In this document: positions 83 through 20,239 of the stretch, in pieces | How positions within the stretch are numbered: position 1 is the stretch's first letter | How the letters are laid out: every line of letters begins with the position of its first letter | Virus record (IMG/VR): IMGVR_UViG_3300030118_006098 | Coordinates: 1-21,378 of that record | Strand: one strand, 5' to 3' | DNA from: a virus | DNA length: 21,378 nucleotides | Notes under the pieces: generated by a model | What the model saw: the letters and a program-made list of their open reading frames with translations, nothing else | Database searches by the model: none | What the model was told of the DNA's origin: nothing | Made by a program: the position numbers and the translations under genes

Positions 83-3000
83 ATGGCAATAGATTTTCCA
101 AATAATCCAAATAGTGGTGATGTTCACTCAGTCGGAGGTGCTTCTTGGAAGTATAATGGATATGCATGGACAAGAATACCTGATCCTGGTGCAAAAGGAG
201 AACCAGGTGATAAAGGTGCAGAGGGTGAAAAGGGGGATACAGGACAAGATGGAAATCCTGGTGACAAAGGTGAAAAGGGAGAAAAAGGTCAGAAGGGTGA
301 TAAAGGTATCAAGGGAGAGAAAGGGCAGAAAGGTGAGATAGGTGATAAGGGTACACAAGGAGAAAAGGCAGGTTTAGTTTATCAATTTTCTAATGCCACA
401 TCAATGGTTGATCCAGGCATTGGTAAGTTTAGATATAACAGTACGACATTTTCATCAATAACAACTATAGCGATTGATATTGCAGATAAAAATAGTAATA
501 GTGTATCAAATTTTCTTGATACATGGAATGATTCTAATAGTGAAATTGACGGAGTATTAGAAATAAAGTCAAATGATAATAGTGATACCACATTATCAAT
601 ATTTCAAGTTACTGGTGTATCAAATAATTCAGGTTGGTTTTCAATTACTGTGCAGAATGGCACTGGAACCATACCGTCAGACCTTGAAACATGTGTAATA
701 AACTTTATAAGAACAGGAGATAAAGGTGCAAAGGGTGAGGTTGGACCTCAAGGTTTAGGTGGTGTAAGTTTTGAATATCAGTTCAACGGTACAACCATAA
801 CTGACACTGATCCTGGCAATGGTAAGATCATAATGAATAATTCGAGTGTGTCTAGCACAACTCAAATATACATTGATGATGTTGAAGGTGGATCTACAAA
901 TACAAATATTGAAACTTTTCTCCGAACTATTGATGACTCTAATAGTACAGTCAGAGGTCATTTAAGAATCACAGATAAATTTAATGGAAATAAATTTGTA
1001 TTATACTCAATCACTGGATCAAGTGTTGAAGCAACTGGTTATCATAAAATAAATGTAACACATGTGACGGGCGATGTTGCTGGTAGTGGTAATTTTGCAA
1101 ACAATGATGATTTAGTTTTAACATTTGCAAGAACAGGAGATAAGGGGCAGAAGGGAGAAATAAATGTATTTGAGATTGAAATTCAAGATGGTGATAATAC
1201 AGATGAAGAAAAATTAGTTTTAACAGGTCCGTCAAGTTCTGATGAGGTAGTCTTTGAGGCAGGAACAGGATTAAGTATTGCGAGAACTGGAGATAAGATT
1301 ACATATACTAATACTGTAATCAATACACAATTAACCACAGAGCAAGTTCAGGATATTGTTGGTAATATGTTCTCTAACAATACAGAGACAAGAATATCGG
1401 CAACTTATGAAGATTCAGATGGAACTATTGATTTAGTTGTTGATGATATGACATCTGATAATAATACAACTTATGGTATCTCTGCTGCAGATGGTGATAA
1501 TAGTGATGAAGAGAAGATAGTATTGACAGGAACGAATCCATCCACAACGGATGATGTTGTGCTTGAAGCAGGAACGGGATTAAGCATAGCGAGAACTGGA
1601 GATAAGATTACATTTACCAATACTGATACTGGTTCGGGTACTCCTTCTTTAACTACAGAGGAAGTTCAGGATATAGTTGGTGGTATGGTTTCTGGTAATA
1701 CTGAAACTCGTGTCAACGTTTCTTATAATGATGCTGCAGGTAAATTAAACTTTGTTGTTGATGATATGACATCAGACAACAATACTGAATACTTACTAAA
1801 GTCATTACAAAATTCTGGATCAAATCAAAATCCCTTATTAACTCTGCAGACTACAGGAGGATCAAACGCAGATACAGTTGAATTAGCGGGTTCTGACGGT
1901 ATTACTGTTAATAGGACTAATGATGGTAAGATAACATTTGGTGGTGCTGCTGTTGGTGGATCAAATACAGTTCTCACAAGACAAGATAGTGGTGATGCTG
2001 TGCATCCAATTGTGTATGTGGATTCTACCACTGATAATACACTAAAAACTTTAAAGACTGAAAATCAGGCTAATAGGTTAGCATACAATCCATCTGGTAA
2101 TCTACTTTACTCATACATTACACAAGTACATCAATTAAAAACATTCAACAGTGGTAGTGTAGGTAACAATGGGCAAGTATTAGTATCTGGTGGTTCTGGA
2201 GCAGGTTGGTCATGGACTGATGCCTCAAACGTTGGTGGTTCTGTTGATAACTATGTTGACAGTCTTTCATTTAGTGGTGGTACACTTACTGTTGGTAGAA
2301 CTGGTAGTCTATCTGATCTAACAATTAACATATCAAGTGTTAATACAAATGATAATACAACTTATGGATTATCAGTAGCGAGTGGAGCTGCATCAAACCA
2401 AGAGAATATAAGATTAACAGGATCAAATCCAAGTTCAACTGATGATATAATATTAGAGGTTGGTGCTGGATTAAGTATTGCGAAAAGTGGAGATAAAATT
2501 ACATTAACAAATACTGATACAGGATCAAGTGTTCAAGGAGTGCCGACTGGTACGATTGTAATGTATGGTTCATCATCTGCTCCTACTGGTTGGTTACTAT
2601 GTGATGGTCAATCAACAAGTGGATATGCTGCTTTAGCAGCGATTGTCGGTAGCACTGTTCCTGATTTAAGAAGTCGTTTCGTTGTTGGTGCTGGTAGTGG
2701 ATACTCAGTTGGAATGACAGGTGGTGCAAATTCTGTTACATTGACCGTATCGACTATGCCTTCTCACAGTCATAGTACAAATAACCATGACCACTCACTT
2801 TCAGGAAAAGTTACAGGAAATCCAAACACAACACTGACAGGTACTGCTACATACATTGCTGAAACATGGGGAAGTGCTGGTAGTGCATCAGGTATTTTTG
2901 GACGTAATGGTGGATATAGTAACTACTACACACCATCTCGTGTTGATAGTAGTCCAACTGGTCAATTAACTATAGATGCAACACACACTCATGATTTAAG

Positions 3001-3106
3001 TGGAGTTACAGGTCCTGCTGCTCCAAATACGAATAATGATGGTGGAGGACAAGGACATGAAAACAGACCTCCTTATTATGCATTGACGTTTATAATTAAA
3101 ACTTGA
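83..3106 (+). CDS. Collagen-like tail fibre with C-terminal tail-collar domain
   Basis: Large virion fibre protein of 1007 residues. After a short N-terminal segment, residues 36-95 form 20 uninterrupted Gly-X-Y triplets. Lysine fills Y in 13 of them and proline in 2; no Lys or Pro occupies X, where Glu/Asp dominate. Two homologous modules of about 120-130 residues follow (from about 98 and 230), each closed by RTGDKG and a short collagen remnant. Next come repeats built on TGLSIARTGDKIT and VVDDMTSDNNT. Residues from about 820 to the end are a phage tail-collar domain: PTGTIVMYGSSSAPTGWLLC near its start, a PDLRSRFVVG motif, and the typical NRPPYYALTFIIK end. Gly-X-Y stretches trimerise fibres in several phage families and the collar domain is usual at fibre tips. 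Probable role: distal tail fibre or receptor contact. Exact position in the virion cannot be assigned. The next gene is an oxygenase, 35 nt downstream. Confidence 0.85.
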   Translation: MAIDFPNNPNSGDVHSVGGASWKYNGYAWTRIPDPGAKGEPGDKGAEGEKGDTGQDGNPGDKGEKGEKGQKGDKGIKGEKGQKGEIGDKGTQGEKAGLVYQFSNATSMVDPGIGKFRYNSTTFSSITTIAIDIADKNSNSVSNFLDTWNDSNSEIDGVLEIKSNDNSDTTLSIFQVTGVSNNSGWFSITVQNGTGTIPSDLETCVINFIRTGDKGAKGEVGPQGLGGVSFEYQFNGTTITDTDPGNGKIIMNNSSVSSTTQIYIDDVEGGSTNTNIETFLRTIDDSNSTVRGHLRITDKFNGNKFVLYSITGSSVEATGYHKINVTHVTGDVAGSGNFANNDDLVLTFARTGDKGQKGEINVFEIEIQDGDNTDEEKLVLTGPSSSDEVVFEAGTGLSIARTGDKITYTNTVINTQLTTEQVQDIVGNMFSNNTETRISATYEDSDGTIDLVVDDMTSDNNTTYGISAADGDNSDEEKIVLTGTNPSTTDDVVLEAGTGLSIARTGDKITFTNTDTGSGTPSLTTEEVQDIVGGMVSGNTETRVNVSYNDAAGKLNFVVDDMTSDNNTEYLLKSLQNSGSNQNPLLTLQTTGGSNADTVELAGSDGITVNRTNDGKITFGGAAVGGSNTVLTRQDSGDAVHPIVYVDSTTDNTLKTLKTENQANRLAYNPSGNLLYSYITQVHQLKTFNSGSVGNNGQVLVSGGSGAGWSWTDASNVGGSVDNYVDSLSFSGGTLTVGRTGSLSDLTINISSVNTNDNTTYGLSVASGAASNQENIRLTGSNPSSTDDIILEVGAGLSIAKSGDKITLTNTDTGSSVQGVPTGTIVMYGSSSAPTGWLLCDGQSTSGYAALAAIVGSTVPDLRSRFVVGAGSGYSVGMTGGANSVTLTVSTMPSHSHSTNNHDHSLSGKVTGNPNTTLTGTATYIAETWGSAGSASGIFGRNGGYSNYYTPSRVDSSPTGQLTIDATHTHDLSGVTGPAAPNTNNDGGGQGHENRPPYYALTFIIKT
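374..2530 (+). repeat. Intragenic protein-module repeats in the collagen-like fibre
   Basis: Two module families recur. The first is about 120-130 residues: it begins near 374 and again near 773, each copy ending in FxRTGDKG plus GxK/GE triplets (near 710-750 and 1130-1160). The second carries DEEKxVLTG, GTGLSIARTGDKIT, QDIVGxM and VVDDMTSDNNT and occurs near 1190-1490 and 1490-1790, with a diverged partial copy near 2340-2530. At DNA level a 24-bp stretch is identical at 1280-1303 and 1589-1612 (starts GCGAGAACTGG). Duplication and divergence within a fibre gene is the simplest reading. Confidence 0.75.
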
Positions 3107-3141: not shown

Positions 3142-3732
3142 ATGAATGAATTAATACAAATTATTAAATTAATTGAACCTGATGAAGTTGATGAATTAAA
3201 TAAACATATTGATTCGTTGAACTTTAATCGTAATTCAGTTTTTAGTGATAAAGGTGATACTTCTATAGTTGATTCGATTAGAACTAGCACTGGCACTTCA
3301 TTAGATGATAATCATGAAATCACACAAAAATTTCATGCAAAGATAAATAAGGGATTAGATGAATATAAACGTAGAGTAGAGAAAATACATTATAATTTTT
3401 CTTACTATCCTATACCTGGTGGTGAAAGAACAAGGTCATGGAGAGAAGGTATACAAATATTACAATATGAAAAGACACAAGAATATAAATTTCATCACGA
3501 TGCAGCACAGAGAAGAGAACAAGAGGAGTATCATCGTAAAATATCTGTTATAACATACTTAACCGAAGATTTTAAGGGTGGTGGAACTGCCTTCCCACAC
3601 GCTACATATAAACCAAAATCAGGATATGCATTGATTTTTCCATCTAATTGGTGTTACCCTCATGCAGGGGAACCAGTTGAAGATGGAGTCAAGAGAGTGG
3701 CAGTTACATGGTATTATGTAGAGCAAACTTGA
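3142..3732 (+). CDS. 2OG-Fe(II) oxygenase, prolyl 4-hydroxylase-like
   Basis: A 196-residue protein with the C-terminal double-stranded beta-helix core of prolyl-4-hydroxylase-type dioxygenases. These enzymes use Fe(II), O2 and 2-oxoglutarate to hydroxylate protein side chains or small molecules, releasing succinate and CO2. Visible iron ligands are H118 and D120 (in FHHDA) and H174 (in HAGEP); R185 in KRVAVTWYY fits the 2-oxoglutarate carboxylate binder. The GGGTAFP strand around 146-152 is typical of the family. Length is normal for the phage and bacterial form without extra domains. The gene lies directly behind the collagen-like fibre and before an unknown small gene, all on the same strand. 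Substrate is unknown: fibre Lys/Pro is attractive given the neighbour, but a metabolite is possible. No ribosome binding site is seen before the ATG, consistent with the promoter abutting it. Confidence 0.85.
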   Translation: MNELIQIIKLIEPDEVDELNKHIDSLNFNRNSVFSDKGDTSIVDSIRTSTGTSLDDNHEITQKFHAKINKGLDEYKRRVEKIHYNFSYYPIPGGERTRSWREGIQILQYEKTQEYKFHHDAAQRREQEEYHRKISVITYLTEDFKGGGTAFPHATYKPKSGYALIFPSNWCYPHAGEPVEDGVKRVAVTWYYVEQT

Positions 3733-14005: not shown

Positions 14006-14986
14006 ATGGTAGTTAAAAGTTCGGGTAGTCCTAATCCACCTCTCTCATTTGGGGAGATTGAAACTGAATTTGGTCAAAATCCTGGCAGAAGTTTAGGGAG
14101 GTATCGTAGCACCCATCCCGACTTTGAAAATGAAGATCTAACACTTTTTGGTGGTGAATTAAATAATCTCCCACTTGATGATGGTATTCCAACAAGCGGT
14201 GAAATTAAATTTAGTGATTTTTATGGAAAGAGATTAAATATTGTTGTTGATTTACATTCAACAGGTAATACTAATTTTAATCACAATGCCTATACGAATA
14301 GATTTGCAAACGGAAATTACAGAATAGTAGGAGATTATCGAACTTCAGTTACTAAAAATACATGGCAGGGTGGCAAGAAGGTAATAATACACATTAATAA
14401 GGAATTTGGGTCTCAAGGAGCAACAAATATAAATGACGTTGCTCTTGAAATGGGTGATATAAGCGATACAATTAGTAACGCTTGGCCAACAGCGACTACA
14501 TTTGCGATTGATGTTGGTAGTAGTGGTCTTGTAGGTGGTAAAGGTGGTAATGGTGGAGATAGTGGAAACGAAGAAACTTCTGGTGAAGATGGTGGTAATG
14601 GCACAAGTGGTATGAAAATACATTCAGGTTTTCAAGACGAGATCACTGGCGAGTCAAGAATATTTGGCGGTGGCGGTGGCGGTGGAAGTGGTTCTGGAGC
14701 TGAGCAAAATGACTGGGGAGATAGAAACTCTGCTTCTGGTGGTCGTGGAGGTGGTGGTGCAGGTTTGCCAGGTGGAGAAGGTGGTAATGAAAATGTAAAT
14801 GAAGCTGGAACTGCAAACGCAGGGGGAGATGGTATAAATGGTAATAATGATGCAGAAGCAGTAGGTGGTAATGGTGGTAACGGAGGAGGAAGAAATCAAG
14901 CGGGTGAAAATGCGAGTGGTGGAGGAAGTATTGAGGGTTCTAATGGAAACGGTGGACCTGCTGGTAATCAATATACTTTTTATTGA
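14006..14986 (+). CDS. Glycine-rich adhesin, T-even gp38-like
   Basis: A 326-residue protein from ATG 14006, 4 nt after the preceding fibre stop. An in-frame ATG at 13889 is rejected because its extra 39 residues lie inside the preceding gene in another frame. Residues about 1-75 contain LSFGEIETEFGQNPGRSL and IPTSGEIKFSDFYGKR, an attachment-type segment common in T4-like marine phage virion proteins. Residues about 75-170 are a non-repetitive strand-rich domain. The last 150 residues are dominated by Gly-rich runs (GGKGGNGGDSGN, FGGGGGGGSGSGAE, GGRGGGGAGLPGGEGG, GGNGGNGGG) separated by short variable loops. That alternation is the pattern of gp38 adhesins of T2/T6/S16-type phages, where polyglycine-II helices display receptor-binding loops at the fibre tip. 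Direct homology to gp38 cannot be shown by eye. The gene converges with a minus-strand gene and overlaps it by 7 nt. Confidence 0.7.
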   Translation: MVVKSSGSPNPPLSFGEIETEFGQNPGRSLGRYRSTHPDFENEDLTLFGGELNNLPLDDGIPTSGEIKFSDFYGKRLNIVVDLHSTGNTNFNHNAYTNRFANGNYRIVGDYRTSVTKNTWQGGKKVIIHINKEFGSQGATNINDVALEMGDISDTISNAWPTATTFAIDVGSSGLVGGKGGNGGDSGNEETSGEDGGNGTSGMKIHSGFQDEITGESRIFGGGGGGGSGSGAEQNDWGDRNSASGGRGGGGAGLPGGEGGNENVNEAGTANAGGDGINGNNDAEAVGGNGGNGGGRNQAGENASGGGSIEGSNGNGGPAGNQYTFY

Positions 14987-15546
14987 GCAAATTCATACCA
15001 TCCTGTAGCGATATATTTGGTTTCTGTATGACTCACTTGACCTTTATGCATGTGTGTCCAGTATGATGGCCACATGACTAAACGACCTTGTACAGCATTG
15101 ATACCCATTTTATAAGATGGAAATAAAGTTCCCCCATCTTGCAAAGTATTTAAGTAAATCATCCAGACGAGAACTCGTTTAGATGATATTTTATCTGTGA
15201 CTTCACAGTGAGTTTTATAAAACCCATCACTGGGATTGTATTTTTGTATGTTGTAAGACGATGTGCACTTCCAAGGTGGTATATTATTAATATCAGGATA
15301 TTCTCTTTTGTATTCCTTAATAAAAGTATGCAAACAAGATGATATCAATTTGCTAGTTATAGTTTTATCATTAAAATTATGATTTATATCAATAGATTTT
15401 TTGACATTTAATTTGATTTTATGATTACCAACTCTCCCATCAATTTGATTTTCTTTATCATTCTCAAAGTCAAAGATTATTTTATTGCATTTATTTTGGT
15501 CAAGAGCATTATCAAATATTGAAATAAAAAGTGGATTATCAATCAT
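14980..15546 (-). CDS. 2OG-Fe(II) oxygenase (third gene of minus-strand operon)
   Basis: A 188-residue dioxygenase-like protein. The core is in the C-terminal half: H113-C-E115 supplies the H-x-E iron pair, with distal H167 (THMHKG) and the 2OG-binding basic residue probably K177 in KYIATGWYEF. LQDGGTLFPSYK is the usual strand leading to a substrate loop, and GRLVMWPSYWTH precedes the distal histidine. The N-terminal 90 residues are Lys/Asn-rich and diverged, probably substrate recognition. Start overlaps the upstream gene's stop by ATGA (15543-15546), implying translational coupling. Glu instead of Asp in the triad is tolerated in the superfamily. The substrate is unknown. The gene ends tail-to-tail with the glycine-rich adhesin and no hairpin terminator is visible between them. 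Confidence 0.78.
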   Translation of the reverse strand: MIDNPLFISIFDNALDQNKCNKIIFDFENDKENQIDGRVGNHKIKLNVKKSIDINHNFNDKTITSKLISSCLHTFIKEYKREYPDINNIPPWKCTSSYNIQKYNPSDGFYKTHCEVTDKISSKRVLVWMIYLNTLQDGGTLFPSYKMGINAVQGRLVMWPSYWTHMHKGQVSHTETKYIATGWYEFAQ

Positions 15547-16193
15547 CTTTTACTTTCTTTAATTCCAAAAAATGAAGTAATAGCATATCTTCCATATCCA
15601 TCATAATAATCTGAATCTTCAATTTTTACCTTCCTAACTCCATGTTCTACCCAACCTGGAAAGATTATTAAAGAATTATTTTCGCATGGTAAGTTCATTT
15701 TATATTTTGGAAACTGTAAATCACCACCCTTAAATTTTTTTGGTTCTTTATAAAAATATGAAAATGCCAAAAACTGAAATGGTGAGTCTGTATGTGGGTC
15801 ATAATATTCGTCATTATGATAATATCGCACCTTTGTTATGTCCCAATTAGCTTGATTAGCAAGACCTACACAATCATGAATCTCTGAAAAAGTATCTAAA
15901 ACACCACAATTAAATATTTTTCGATTCATTGTAAGAATGTTAGATATATTTCTAAAATTAGTTTTTTCTTTTTCTTTTGTCCTGTCACGATATATGTCAT
16001 CAAGTAAAAGTGCCTTTGCGTTTGTCCTATCAACAACTCCACCATATTTTTTTGCATCAAGAAGTTTATTTGGTGCAGTATAAAAATCTAACTCTTTCCA
16101 AATTAAGTTAAGTTCTGCTTCATTGTAGAAATTATAAACGATCATCATGGGAAATGGATCGCAATATAATTCTGCTTCTAATTGTTCTTTCAT
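15543..16193 (-). CDS. 2OG-Fe(II) oxygenase (second gene of minus-strand operon)
   Basis: A 216-residue protein with the cleanest facial triad on this strand: H134-T-D136 (YDPHTDSPFQF), distal H184 (GWVEHGVRKV), and R202 (GRYAITSFF) as the likely 2OG salt-bridge partner. KKFKGGDLQFPKYK and NNSLIIFPG are the typical core strands. It belongs with the P4H-like 2OG-FeII_Oxy_3 grouping by motif order and length. The N-terminus CDPFPMMIVYNFYNEAELNL resembles the opening strand-helix (landing in IxxNFLS-type sequence) of phage 2OG oxygenases. It is coupled on both sides by 4-nt ATGA overlaps, so all three minus-strand genes are likely made together. Substrate unknown. Confidence 0.83.
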   Translation of the reverse strand: MKEQLEAELYCDPFPMMIVYNFYNEAELNLIWKELDFYTAPNKLLDAKKYGGVVDRTNAKALLLDDIYRDRTKEKEKTNFRNISNILTMNRKIFNCGVLDTFSEIHDCVGLANQANWDITKVRYYHNDEYYDPHTDSPFQFLAFSYFYKEPKKFKGGDLQFPKYKMNLPCENNSLIIFPGWVEHGVRKVKIEDSDYYDGYGRYAITSFFGIKESKR

Positions 16194-16789
16194 AATTGAT
16201 TACTTTGTATCCATGCCCATGAGGTAACTAGATATTTGTCACCATCTATTGGTGGATTTCCTCTGTGAACATGTGTATATTGGCATGGGAATATCAAAAC
16301 ATCTCCAGCTGACGCTACTTCTCTCTTATTTTGATATAGAAATTCAGTTTCACCTCCATCAAAATCATCGTTGAGATAAACTTGTATCACAAAAGTTCTA
16401 CGAGCATCACTAACATTACCATTTTCATAGTGCCATGTATGAAAACCTCCACCACATTTAATTTTTTTAATCTTACAATCATGTATAAGAAATTTTCTTA
16501 ATCCAAGAATAGGGAATTGCTTCAAGTATTTGTCAATACAAGGTTGTATTTTAGGAAATATTTTATTACATATTGAAGATGCAGTAGGGAGTGTAATACC
16601 ATCATCAGATAGCACGTTGATTGCATCTTGATCTTGAAATGGTCGATTTGTAAGGTCTTGCTCAAATAAGATGCAATTCTCATCAAAAAAATCAATATGT
16701 TTAATTATGTCTCTACATTCATCCCTTGAAAATATTTTTTCATACCTTATAATAAAATCAGTAATGCGTTCGTTTTCGTTAACTGTCAT
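16190..16789 (-). CDS. 2OG-Fe(II) oxygenase (first gene of minus-strand operon)
   Basis: A 199-residue protein read from ATG 16789. A TTG at 16807 would add six residues but lies upstream of the predicted transcription start (about 16802), so the ATG is preferred. Triad by motif: H120-Y-E122 (FHTWHYENG), distal H175 (HVHRGNPP), and K185 in KYLVTSWAW as the 2OG ligand. DDFDGGETEFLY and AGDVLIFPCQYTH are the expected core strands. The H-x-G-x-P segment after the distal His and the Lys in the last strand both resemble prolyl-4-hydroxylases. It is the promoter-proximal gene of the operon and overlaps the next gene by 4 nt. The three operon members are clearly diverged from one another, arguing for different substrates or sites rather than recent duplication. 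Confidence 0.8.
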   Translation of the reverse strand: MTVNENERITDFIIRYEKIFSRDECRDIIKHIDFFDENCILFEQDLTNRPFQDQDAINVLSDDGITLPTASSICNKIFPKIQPCIDKYLKQFPILGLRKFLIHDCKIKKIKCGGGFHTWHYENGNVSDARRTFVIQVYLNDDFDGGETEFLYQNKREVASAGDVLIFPCQYTHVHRGNPPIDGDKYLVTSWAWIQSNQL

Positions 16790-16808
16790 GATAAATCTCA
16801 ATAACAAT

Positions 16809-16864: not shown

Positions 16865-17953
16865 ATGATTAAGATTGCTATTGTTGGTGCTGGTAATGCT
16901 GGTTGTGTGACAGCGTTGCACTTCCAAAAATATTTGTCAGAGAAAACAGATAAATTTGAGATAGACATTTACCATAGTCCGCATTATCATCCGATAGAAA
17001 AGGTGGGTCAAGGTACTAATCTATCACTTCCAAGATTAATTTCATCTGTTCTAGATATAAATTGGTATAATAATCCAATAGGTGCTACTATAAAAACAGG
17101 CATATTATACGAGAACTGGGGAAAGAAAAATAATAAGATATTTCATCCATTGGGCGATATGCACGATGCATCCATGCACTTTGTACCTAAAAAATTATCG
17201 GAATGTGTGATTGAATCTAAATTATTCAACGTTATTGAAAAAGTCATAAATGAAGCAGAAGAAGATATAGATGCAGATATTATTTTTGATTGTCGGGGTA
17301 GGCATAATCGAGATCATAGTAAATATGATACATTAATTAATCCATTAAATAGTGTTCTCCTATCTGTAAAATATGAGAGAGATATTGATTTAATATACAC
17401 TAAATGTGTGGCAACACCTAATGGATGGACTTTTGTTATCCCTAATCAAAATAGTGTATCATATGGATATTTGTATAATAATCAGATAACAAAAAAAGAG
17501 GATGCTATAGATGATTTCACATCTAGATTTCATTTAGATTTTATCACTGATAGTCTTGATTTTGATAATTATATGGCAAAAAGTTTTTATAATGGTAAGA
17601 GAACTATTTTGCAGGGAAATATGTATGGATTCATAGAACCAATGGAGGCTACATCTGTTGCTTTTTATCAATATATTTGTAGACAATCTTGGGACTTTAT
17701 ATTTGATATACAGACATTTAATTATTGTAATAATAAAATAAGAACAAATATGAAACAATTAGAGACAATTATACTTTGGCATTACCAATATGGATCTAAG
17801 TATGACACACCTTTTTGGAACTATGCTAAATCTCTACCATTTAATCCTGATGATAAATTTTATGAAATGATAAGTAATGAAGAAAATGATCCTAAACAAT
17901 ATGGACAATGGAAGAAATGGAATTTTGATAATTGGAAGTCAGGAGTAGAATAA
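16865..17953 (+). CDS. Flavin-dependent (tryptophan-type) halogenase
   Basis: A 362-residue FAD enzyme predicted to chlorinate, brominate or iodinate a substrate using FADH2, O2 and halide. The N-terminus has the Rossmann FAD motif GAGNAG (8-13) on a hydrophobic strand. K77 in ATIKTGILYENWG lies where the catalytic Lys of PrnA-type halogenases (K79) sits. NGWTFVIP (186-193) is the signature GWxWxIP with the second Trp replaced by Phe190. IEPMEATSVA (257-266) matches the (I)EPLEATS motif lining the FAD/substrate channel and bearing the conserved Glu. It is shorter than the usual bacterial 500-550 residues, lacking much of the C-terminal substrate-covering region. A cyanophage halogenase (VirX1 of phage Syn10) with relaxed substrate range and iodination activity is known, giving precedent. 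No flavin reductase is visible nearby, so the host would supply FADH2. It is coupled to the next gene by TAATG. Confidence 0.85.
   Translation: MIKIAIVGAGNAGCVTALHFQKYLSEKTDKFEIDIYHSPHYHPIEKVGQGTNLSLPRLISSVLDINWYNNPIGATIKTGILYENWGKKNNKIFHPLGDMHDASMHFVPKKLSECVIESKLFNVIEKVINEAEEDIDADIIFDCRGRHNRDHSKYDTLINPLNSVLLSVKYERDIDLIYTKCVATPNGWTFVIPNQNSVSYGYLYNNQITKKEDAIDDFTSRFHLDFITDSLDFDNYMAKSFYNGKRTILQGNMYGFIEPMEATSVAFYQYICRQSWDFIFDIQTFNYCNNKIRTNMKQLETIILWHYQYGSKYDTPFWNYAKSLPFNPDDKFYEMISNEENDPKQYGQWKKWNFDNWKSGVE
17941..17945 (+). promoter_or_regulatory. Ribosome binding site that fixes the start of the next gene
   Basis: AGGAG lies 7 nt before ATG 17953, which overlaps the halogenase stop as TAATG. It is one of the few clear Shine-Dalgarno sites in the window and supports ATG 17953 over the upstream in-frame TTG at 17932. 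Confidence 0.7.
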
Positions 17954-18474
17954 TGTTTACCATACCATTTTATCAATATAAAATAGAAAATTGGGATATT
18001 AAAAAACAACAATTACTTAAAATATGTTCATCAATTAAATTTGAGAAACAGACAGATATTACAGCAGATAATCTATATACGGATCATGGAAATGATGGAC
18101 GTTATAAAAACGATGTAGTGGATATATTAAAAGATGAAATTGTTAAATTTTCAAACGAATCTAATTATAAAAATTTGATGCTTACTGACGCATGGTTTCA
18201 ACAATATTATCGAAGTCAATTTCATTCTCCTCACGATCATGGTGCCATTGGGTATAGTTCTGTGACATACATAAAGTTTGATAGACAAGTGCATCAACCA
18301 ACAAATTTTATTGCACCATTTTCTGATCCTAATGGTGATAAAATCGAATTTGTTCCAGATGTAGATGAAGGACAAATTATATTTTTTCCATCAACTATCA
18401 CTCATTATGTGTTACCAACTAAAACAAATAAAAAAAGAGTTATATTATCTTTTAATCTTAAAAGTGCGGGTTGA
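17953..18474 (+). CDS. 2OG-Fe(II) oxygenase-like protein (2OG-FeII_Oxy_5 type)
   Basis: A 173-residue protein. The pattern is that of the small phage and bacterial group with ...AWFxxY...HSPHxHxxxxSSVTYIKF... followed by EGQIIFFPSTITHYVLPT and KKRVILSFN. H94 and H96, distal H151 and R162 are the candidate active-site residues. The first pair reads H-D-H, so the canonical carboxylate ligand two residues after a His is not obvious; this H-x-H form appears typical of the group. Function in this group is largely untested. The N-terminal MFTIPFYQYKIENW also fits the group. It is read by coupling to the halogenase (1-nt overlap, strong Shine-Dalgarno), so the two probably act on one pathway. It could be a non-heme iron hydroxylase, or an inactive or differently liganded relative. 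Confidence 0.7.
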   Translation: MFTIPFYQYKIENWDIKKQQLLKICSSIKFEKQTDITADNLYTDHGNDGRYKNDVVDILKDEIVKFSNESNYKNLMLTDAWFQQYYRSQFHSPHDHGAIGYSSVTYIKFDRQVHQPTNFIAPFSDPNGDKIEFVPDVDEGQIIFFPSTITHYVLPTKTNKKRVILSFNLKSAG

Positions 18475-18594: not shown

Positions 18595-19566
18595 ATGGTC
18601 GATTGTAAATACATACAAGACGATTGCGTAAGATATTCAGATAATTGTAAAGAACAGTATGATTCGATAGTCACAGACCCACCCTACGGTATTGAGTATC
18701 TTGGTAACAGTTGGGATACTTACCAGAACTGCGTGGCATTTAAGAGTGGAACTTGGGAGTCGATTGCAAAGACACTCAAACCAGGTGGACACTTACTTAT
18801 CTTTGGTGCATCGAAGACCTTTCATCGACTCACTTGTGCTGTTGAGGATTCAGGACTAAGGATTAAAGATGTCTTGATGTGGTTATATGGTCAAGGTATG
18901 CCAAAGAGTCAGAACATCGGTAAGAAAGACCCAAAGTGGGAAGGGTGGGGAACTGGACTGAAACCCTGCTATGAACCGATACTACTAGCACAGAAACCTA
19001 TCTCAGAGAAGACAATCGTAAAGAATTGTCAGGAACATGGAGTGGGTGGTATCAATATTGAAGAGTCGAGATTAGAGTCAGGTCGATGGGCAGGGAATGT
19101 ATTGCATGATGGAAGTGAAGAGGTTGAGAATGAGTTTGCAAAGTTTGGTGAGCGTGGGAATGGGTGGTCGAGAAACTATGGTGTCGAGGATTATCAGGGC
19201 AGACAATATGGTGGTGGTGTCTTTGGTGGTGGAGGATATATTGGAGATACTACCTATTGTGATGAAGGAACTGCGAGTCGGTTCTTCTATTCGACAAAGA
19301 GTTCAGTTAAAGAGAGAACACATAATCGAACAATTGAAAACGATCACCCAACTGTCAAGAACTTAGAGTTAATGAAGTATCTAATCAAACTTATCACACC
19401 CAAAGGGGGAACTGTATTCGATCCATTTGCAGGGTCAGGCACAACTCTTATCGCAGCAAAGGAACTTGGATATGATTCAATAGGAGTTGAACTTTCAGAG
19501 GAATATTGTAAGATTATAAATGACAGAATTAAAGCAGTTACATCTCCATTAGAACAACTATTATAG
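18595..19566 (+). CDS. DNA methyltransferase (adenine-N6 or cytosine-N4), beta order
   Basis: A 323-residue amino-methyltransferase that moves a methyl group from S-adenosylmethionine to an exocyclic amino group in DNA. Catalytic motif IV is DPPY at 28-31 (TDPPYGIEYLGNSWD). The AdoMet-binding motif I, FDPFAGSGTT (275-284), is near the C-terminus, followed by GVELSEEYC. The IV-then-I order defines the beta class (PF01555 type). The middle carries RWAGNVLHDGSEEV, a Gly-rich segment around 195-215 and ASRFFYSTKSSVKER, then HPTVKNLELM. This arrangement is common in phage orphan methyltransferases, with the target-recognition region in the Gly-rich middle. The target sequence cannot be read off. 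No restriction enzyme is adjacent, so self-protection or regulation is likelier than a full restriction-modification system. The start is the first ATG after an in-frame TGA. The partner methyltransferase begins one base after its stop. Confidence 0.9.
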   Translation: MVDCKYIQDDCVRYSDNCKEQYDSIVTDPPYGIEYLGNSWDTYQNCVAFKSGTWESIAKTLKPGGHLLIFGASKTFHRLTCAVEDSGLRIKDVLMWLYGQGMPKSQNIGKKDPKWEGWGTGLKPCYEPILLAQKPISEKTIVKNCQEHGVGGINIEESRLESGRWAGNVLHDGSEEVENEFAKFGERGNGWSRNYGVEDYQGRQYGGGVFGGGGYIGDTTYCDEGTASRFFYSTKSSVKERTHNRTIENDHPTVKNLELMKYLIKLITPKGGTVFDPFAGSGTTLIAAKELGYDSIGVELSEEYCKIINDRIKAVTSPLEQLL

Positions 19567-19567
19567 T

Positions 19568-20239
19568 ATGAGTAAACTTAATTTATATAATGATAATTGT
19601 ATGAATATCTTACGCACTCTTGAGAGTGGTAGTGTTAATTTAACACTTACAGATATACCGTATGATGAAGTAAATCGAAAGAGTGGTGGACTTAGAAATT
19701 TAGATAAGAGTCATGCTGATGTCATTACATTCCCTCTTGACGATTTTATCGATGAAGTTGTAAGAGTTACATCGGGTAGCATTTATATTTTTTGTGGTTC
19801 AGTTCAAGTATCACATATTCGAGATAGATTAATTGAACATAAAATGTCAGTACGACATTGTATATGGGAGAAGACAAACCCATCACCAATGAACGGTCAA
19901 CATATATGGTTATCAAGTATCGAGAATTGTGTGTTTGGGAAAAAATCAGGAGCTACCTTCAATGAACATTGTAAGTCAGCAGTATGGAGACACCCGATTG
20001 AGCATTATAAAGATCACCCTACACCAAAACCAGTTAAGTTAATGTCAAGATTAATTGAAGCGAGTTCTAACATAGGAGATACTGTATTAGATCCCTGTAT
20101 GGGTAGTGGTGCAATCGGAGTCGCAGCTAAGCAATGTGCAAGAGACTTTATAGGGGTAGAATTAAATAAAGAATACTATACGATGACAGAAGAAAGAATA
20201 CAAAGTCAAACTGGAAGTGTTCTTGATTTTCTTTCATAG
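19568..20239 (+). CDS. DNA methyltransferase, second, with DIPY catalytic motif
   Basis: A 223-residue amino-methyltransferase of the same beta layout. Motif IV is DIPY at 29-32 (TLTDIPYDEV), a variant of (D/N/S)PPY that keeps the Asp, second Pro and Tyr. Motif I, LDPCMGSG (174-181), is followed by GVELNKEYY. HPTPKPVKLMSRLIE before motif I is typical. It is about 100 residues shorter than its neighbour, lacking the Gly-rich insert, so the target-recognition region is small (about residues 60-135, including WEKTNPSPMNGQ and ENCVFGKKSG). Because the two enzymes differ clearly, they probably methylate different sites. The gene is separated from the previous stop by one base and lacks its own visible ribosome binding site, so it is probably translated by coupling. 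Confidence 0.87.
   Translation: MSKLNLYNDNCMNILRTLESGSVNLTLTDIPYDEVNRKSGGLRNLDKSHADVITFPLDDFIDEVVRVTSGSIYIFCGSVQVSHIRDRLIEHKMSVRHCIWEKTNPSPMNGQHIWLSSIENCVFGKKSGATFNEHCKSAVWRHPIEHYKDHPTPKPVKLMSRLIEASSNIGDTVLDPCMGSGAIGVAAKQCARDFIGVELNKEYYTMTEERIQSQTGSVLDFLS

Follow-up and report, generated by a model that had tools for sequence, protein, structure and literature searches.

For fifteen years the 'tryptophan halogenase' of cyanophages has figured among the accessory genes without an explanation. An ortholog cluster published in 2010 mixes two types of it, compact genes of 1104–1167 bp being placed together with full-length genes of 1437–1593 bp (PMC3037559). The described enzymes that bear most closely on the compact type are bacterial peptide brominases. 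SrpI, from a sponge microbiome, needs the leader of its peptide and did not brominate free tryptophan; its published landmarks comprise the catalytic Lys84, Tyr102 and Tyr110 (both self-brominated), LysC peptides ending at residue 135, and a loop, 105-PQQVS-109, that touches the leader in a model (PMC10286304, PMC10858898), the surface loop as a whole spanning residues 104–110 (PMC10858898). MppI, another enzyme of SrpI-like kind, acts as a brominase on a lanthipeptide, and its K73A mutant is inactive (PMC11791876).

The gene considered here lies in a window of viral DNA of 21,378 nucleotides, in which an ORF at 16865–17953 (+ strand, ATG to TAA) encodes a protein of 362 amino acids. It matches the PF04820 profile with an E-value of 2e-34 (score 119.7 bits, cut-off 21) and phrog_2928, 'tryptophan halogenase', with an E-value of 5.7e-64, in agreement with the first-pass annotation, which had proposed a compact viral halogenase-family ORF at this position. 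Comparison with ten relatives gives a dN/dS of 0.06–0.18, indicating purifying selection; together with the homologs this rules out a chance or mis-called frame.

Reading the protein from its N-terminus, the FAD-binding GxGxxG motif takes the form GAGNAG (residues 8–13; 16886–16903), with G8 and G10 invariant in all 76 Phe-type rows of the alignment. Lys77 (17093–17095), the predicted catalytic lysine, aligns with the SYK of RebH and with K75 of VirX1, and is present in every row of both types (76/76 Phe-type, 35/35 Trp-type). The motif GWTFVIP follows at residues 187–193 (17423–17443), retaining W188 and replacing the second Trp of GWxWxIP with Phe190 (17432–17434), and EPMEATS lies at residues 258–264 (17636–17656); its second Glu, E261 (17645–17647), occupies the position aligned to the catalytic Glu and is kept in 74 of 76 Phe-type rows, with Gln in the other two. 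The earlier description of these features—an FAD motif, K77 region and EPMEATS all kept, with GWTFVIP standing in for GWxWxIP—is borne out, and in the alignment K77 and E261 both fall on active-site positions, neither being displaced. The protein reads WTFVIP rather than the strict WxWxIP, as the whole subfamily has Phe here; WxWxIP or its variants are, however, also absent from some accepted flavin-dependent halogenases (FDHs), such that the motif is not strictly defining (PMC8407142). By profile, predicted fold and catalytic residues the protein is filed as a PF04820 flavin-dependent halogenase, and FDH-type catalysis is well supported by the alignment and the model taken together.

Two further residue positions deserve mention. 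At residue 49, within VGQGT (17009–17011), the protein has Gln where full-length enzymes carry the 'strap' Glu (E46 in both PyrH and VirX1); this position is Gln in 64 of the 76 Phe-type proteins and Glu in all 35 Trp-type rows. For the PyrH E46Q mutant a structure is available (2wes). The two rows with Gln at the catalytic Glu position are divergent compact proteins from phages S-SSM7 (L085; EPIQATS) and P-TIM40 (L088; EPLQALS), which, judged on this residue, may be weakly active or serve another function.

To place the Phe in context we used homologs from viral contig searches (77 and then 80 loci) and 50 records from annotated phages. Wherever the motif could be read, compact homologs (about 345–398 aa) all have GWxF (GWTFVIP, GWCFYIP, GWMFGIP and others), whereas full-length homologs (mostly 480–550 aa), viral or bacterial, all have GWxW; in the curated alignment the second-Trp column holds Phe in every compact or related protein (76/76) and Trp in every full-length one (36/36). 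A tree of 116 rows needs exactly one change of Trp/Phe label. When the Phe column is removed, a 57-row tree still sets the phage-Phe, RiPP-bacterial-Phe and Trp groups each to one side of a branch (UFBoot/SH-aLRT of 100/96, 100/95 and 100/99, respectively). All GWxF proteins thus sit on one side of the GWxW branch of this unrooted tree, the phage clade being sister to the RiPP clade and not within it. Phe190 is, on this alignment and tree, a fixed marker of the subfamily with a single origin, and not the individual change in this gene that had first been supposed. VirX1, put forward in the first-pass annotation as the relevant comparator, turns out to belong to the Trp/full-length group; tree, motif and indels all rule out that the 362-aa protein is its ortholog or of its type.

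Some side observations arose from the same homologs. A BD1-7 clade bacterium, returned by the genome scan described below, carries on its chromosome a 369-aa GWCF halogenase (L095:4682–5791) that groups with S-ShM2 inside the phage clade, a position suggestive of transfer from phage to bacterium. In Syn10 (L083:3269–6374) and S-RIM44 (L093:1748–4859) two overlapping full-length halogenase genes stand in tandem, only the second gene of the Syn10 pair being VirX1.

The AlphaFold model of the protein (pLDDT 91.8, pTM 0.91) aligns end to end with FDH structures over 347–360 residues, with Z-scores (VIA) of 38.4 for AbeH, 34.6 for a RebH variant, 34.3 for PrnA, 33.4 for MibH and 30.3 for VirX1. Relative to VirX1, the largest losses in the alignment correspond to residues 100–160 (internal, ~61 residues) and 470–530 (C-terminal, ~61 residues), with smaller ones at 197–213 and 437–456; the junction left by the internal excision lies at approximately 17156–17170. 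About half of the lost length is therefore internal: the C-terminus is indeed trimmed, as originally noted, but this is not the main cause of the small size, and a description of the protein as mainly a C-terminal truncation has to be corrected. Since the model follows the FDH fold along its full length, it retains the FAD box and tunnel, and what has been lost are pieces of the variable part that binds substrate; this reduction probably leaves the active site open, which upholds, at the level of the model, the suggestion of a wider pocket, although not the accompanying one that the lost Trp alters the chemistry. According to an alignment made via the SrpI-like bacterial protein L097 (see below), the leader-contact loop of SrpI lies at the position where full-length enzymes carry the segment excised in the phage protein.

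Seven basal bacterial GWxF proteins were found. Three, outside the phage clade, came from a genome scan (L096–L098), each with the excision at VirX1 ~100–160, and four more from the family to which the Ruegeria genome belongs. The genomes sampled numbered 369 for the class of Granulosicoccus and 394 for the family of Ruegeria, each set drawn evenly from a larger group. Six of the seven adjoin RiPP-type genes and the seventh an ABC exporter; the RiPP-type proteins are 419–454 aa long. The Ruegeria gene (L096/L262) has a LanM and a precursor with Nif11 leader alongside, YcaO cyclodehydratases adjoin L098, L258, L260 and L261, and ABC exporters adjoin L097, L259, L260 and L262, those of L260 matching NHLM models best and one of L262 carrying a C39 peptidase. 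Near L097 the ABC exporter is the only profile-confirmed neighbour; near L259 those confirmed in this way are an ABC exporter and a desaturase-GlnE protein, the latter common to L258 and L260. This protein, in which a fatty-acid-desaturase domain is joined to a GlnE-like region, recurs in three of the bacterial clusters (L258:14469–16865, L259:11871–14339, L260:2021–4387). Two bacterial RiPP-type halogenase genes have directly after them a gene for a giant kinase-AAA-GAF-cyclase sensor protein of 1842–1859 aa (L263:10196–15775, L261:9752–15280), and in L263 a second FAD protein lies upstream.

It is through L097 that the subfamily can be tied to SrpI. Its K83, Y101, 104-PQQVS-108, Y109 and K134 correspond, at a constant offset of one, to K84, Y102, 105-PQQVS-109, Y110 and K135 of SrpI; by this comparison, made with published landmarks and not with the full SrpI sequence, L097 reproduces every landmark that could be checked. 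The nearest bacterial GWxF relatives decorate ribosomal peptides, and the phage substrate is on this account probably a peptide or protein. Our preferred reading, to which we give a probability of roughly 0.55, is that the gene encodes a compact GWxF halogenase of a subfamily common to marine phages and SrpI-type RiPP brominases, acting on a peptide or protein; by analogy, phages would probably use it to add bromine or chlorine to such a substrate rather than to free tryptophan. A cellular reductase would supply FADH2, whose reaction with O2 and halide would generate HOX at the FAD site; HOX would pass down the tunnel to Lys77 and Glu261; and an aromatic side chain of the peptide or protein, probably Trp or Tyr, held over a site opened to the surface by the internal excision, would there be halogenated, most likely brominated. 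Against this, the phage clade is sister to the RiPP clade on an unrooted tree, and the type of substrate may differ between them.

The genetic context of the phage gene differs from that of its bacterial relatives. Among the window ORFs there are no RiPP precursor or maturation genes alongside the halogenase; Nif11 is absent from 22 virus records, including eight complete phage genomes, which disposes of a Nif11 precursor carried on these genomes; and of the 25 Pfam families met most often in genes adjacent to the halogenase, none is a RiPP maturation family. Small neighbours with a Trp in their last eight residues show no excess beside halogenase loci, and a small peptide with C-terminal Trp, encoded next to the gene as its substrate, was rejected on these grounds.

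An alternative that we hold possible, if on the unlikely side, is a small-molecule halogenase whose open pocket takes indoles, phenols, or the precursor of a phage-directed secondary metabolite or surface sugar. Fold and catalytic residues suit it equally, VirX1 takes many small substrates in vitro (PMC8407142), and an open site would also explain a broad scope such as that of BrvH in vitro (PMC5945002). A published proposal moreover has a cyanophage cluster of halogenase and 2OG oxygenase producing a halogenated metabolite or modifying polysaccharide (PMC7824862); the protein named there is, however, AGH07741.1 and not the compact S-SSM6a gene AGH07521.1. The compact clade is also not the clade of VirX1, and its sister group tailors peptides, which favours the peptide or protein substrate.

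Oxygenase genes surround the halogenase in the window as well. Three 2OG-Fe(II) oxygenases of PF13640 are divergent from it, at 16190–16807 (phrog_61), 15543–16193 and 14980–15546 (phrog_61), all on the − strand, and a fourth, of PF13759 (phrog_81; 17953–18474, +), starts on its stop codon (TAATG). Of 65 non-redundant loci, 22 have a 2OG gene directly beside the halogenase (14/61 on each side), in many cases with an overlap, and such genes are also found farther out: 16/55 at −2, 9/56 at +2, 9/43 at −3 and 4/49 at +3. Neighbour-position controls show enrichment at and near the halogenase with no sharp peak. Measured against the share of PF13640 in eight complete cyanophage genomes, ~3% of the annotated genes, the association is real; PF13640 is nevertheless common and clustered in these phages (5–13 matches per genome), and with 9/43 at −3 the adjacency may reflect a shared accessory island. 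For the peptide halogenase MibH, proline in the substrate peptide has to be hydroxylated first (PMC12615548), and by analogy joint action of halogenase and hydroxylase is plausible. Tentatively, and more as a suggestion than an expectation, the compact halogenase and the adjacent prolyl-hydroxylase-like oxygenases might form a cassette that modifies a virion protein or a host peptide; candidate targets would be the tail fibres encoded nearby, which are collagen-like or rich in glycine, or, on the host side, a prochlorosin, and halogenated proteins or peptides would then be made under viral control.

Elsewhere in the window, a collagen-like tail-fibre gene (83–3106) is directly followed by a prolyl-hydroxylase-like PF13640 oxygenase (3142–3732), an arrangement which suggests that the oxygenase hydroxylates the fibre, and two adjacent N6/N4 DNA methylase genes (18595–20239) come after the halogenase block. 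At the DNA level there is one weak match, between the fibre and a marine single-cell virus, besides short YadA-like ones with cyanophages. Full-length phage halogenases (L092, L091, L093 set) also occur near fibre genes: that of S-SRM01 between a tail fibre and a gp37-gp38 adhesin, that of S-CREM1 near a collagen-like gene and that of S-RIM44 near a tail fibre assembly gene.

Hydroxylases as neighbours bring to mind a further reading, a peptidyl monooxygenase that, like QhpG, would use C4a-hydroperoxyflavin to hydroxylate an aromatic side chain within a peptide or protein. According to one proposal, WxWxIP prevents hydroxylation, although its authors regard the part played by single residues as unclear (PMC10696468), and the present protein has lost one of the two Trp; QhpG is, besides, the sole NCBIfam match of the protein (E 5e-4), albeit at 19.1 bits where the cut-off is 240. 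The re-face channel of QhpG, a true peptidyl-Trp monooxygenase, contains Trp181 and Trp183 (PMC7876137), which from their spacing appear to be the WxW pair, so a Trp pair does not exclude hydroxylation. As QhpG keeps the pair and SrpI-like L097 has Phe, F190 alone does not mean oxygenation, and the notion that loss of the Trp alters the chemistry, raised at the outset, loses its footing; conversion to a monooxygenase by W-to-F exchange was accordingly kept at low weight. With K77 invariant and E261 nearly so, as halogenation expects, we regard the monooxygenase as improbable. The fixed-WxF clade, including its SrpI-like protein, lets the WxWxIP idea be tested on natural variation. That the gene is redundant or decaying and has no catalytic function, which the Gln at position 261 in S-SSM7 and P-TIM40 and the altered state of the best-known FDH motif might recall, is very improbable given the dN/dS, the conservation of K77 and E261, and intact frames in well over 100 viral loci.

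Set against known systems, the compact protein shares fold, GxGxxG, Lys and Glu with PrnA, RebH and PyrH, free-Trp enzymes of 510–550 aa with GWxWxIP to which it is 18–22% identical. VirX1 from cyanophage Syn10 (6qgm; it matches CPUG_00131 over its whole length except the start) is likewise a phage FDH of the same fold (347 residues aligned at 2.8 Å, 21% identity) with Lys and Glu, but has 530 aa, GWVWNIP, both segments that the phage protein is without, and a place on the other side of the tree. QhpG, a flavoprotein of ~430 aa resembling FDHs, also acts on Trp within a protein, yet differs as a monooxygenase with a winged-helix domain, the peptidyl-Trp dihydroxylase of CTQ biogenesis (PMC7876137). 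MibH halogenates a peptide and is full-length in the PDB (541 aa), such that the excision is not required for peptide substrates. With SrpI and MppI the phage protein shares the catalytic Lys and, judged from SrpI-like L097 and not from the SrpI sequence itself, GWxF, the internal excision and EPLEAT (EPMEAT in the phage protein); it differs in its shorter length, in Gln49 and in its neighbours. Because RiPP context was tested and is absent, the protein is not filed as SrpI-type, although the best reading, by analogy, is that it works like these enzymes. The compact 'tryptophan halogenases' (prnA, T4-GC 212) of S-ShM2, S-SSM5, S-SSM7, P-TIM40 and other phages are annotated by homology and belong to the same subfamily (360–390 aa, GWxF, 25–39% identity). 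Cyanophage halogenases are thus of two types, one full-length and VirX1-like, the other compact and akin to peptide brominases, a division that makes the question testable, halogenated peptides or proteins being expected from the compact type and not halogenated tryptophan, and that turns the compact clade into a source of many small enzymes as candidates for brominating peptides and proteins.
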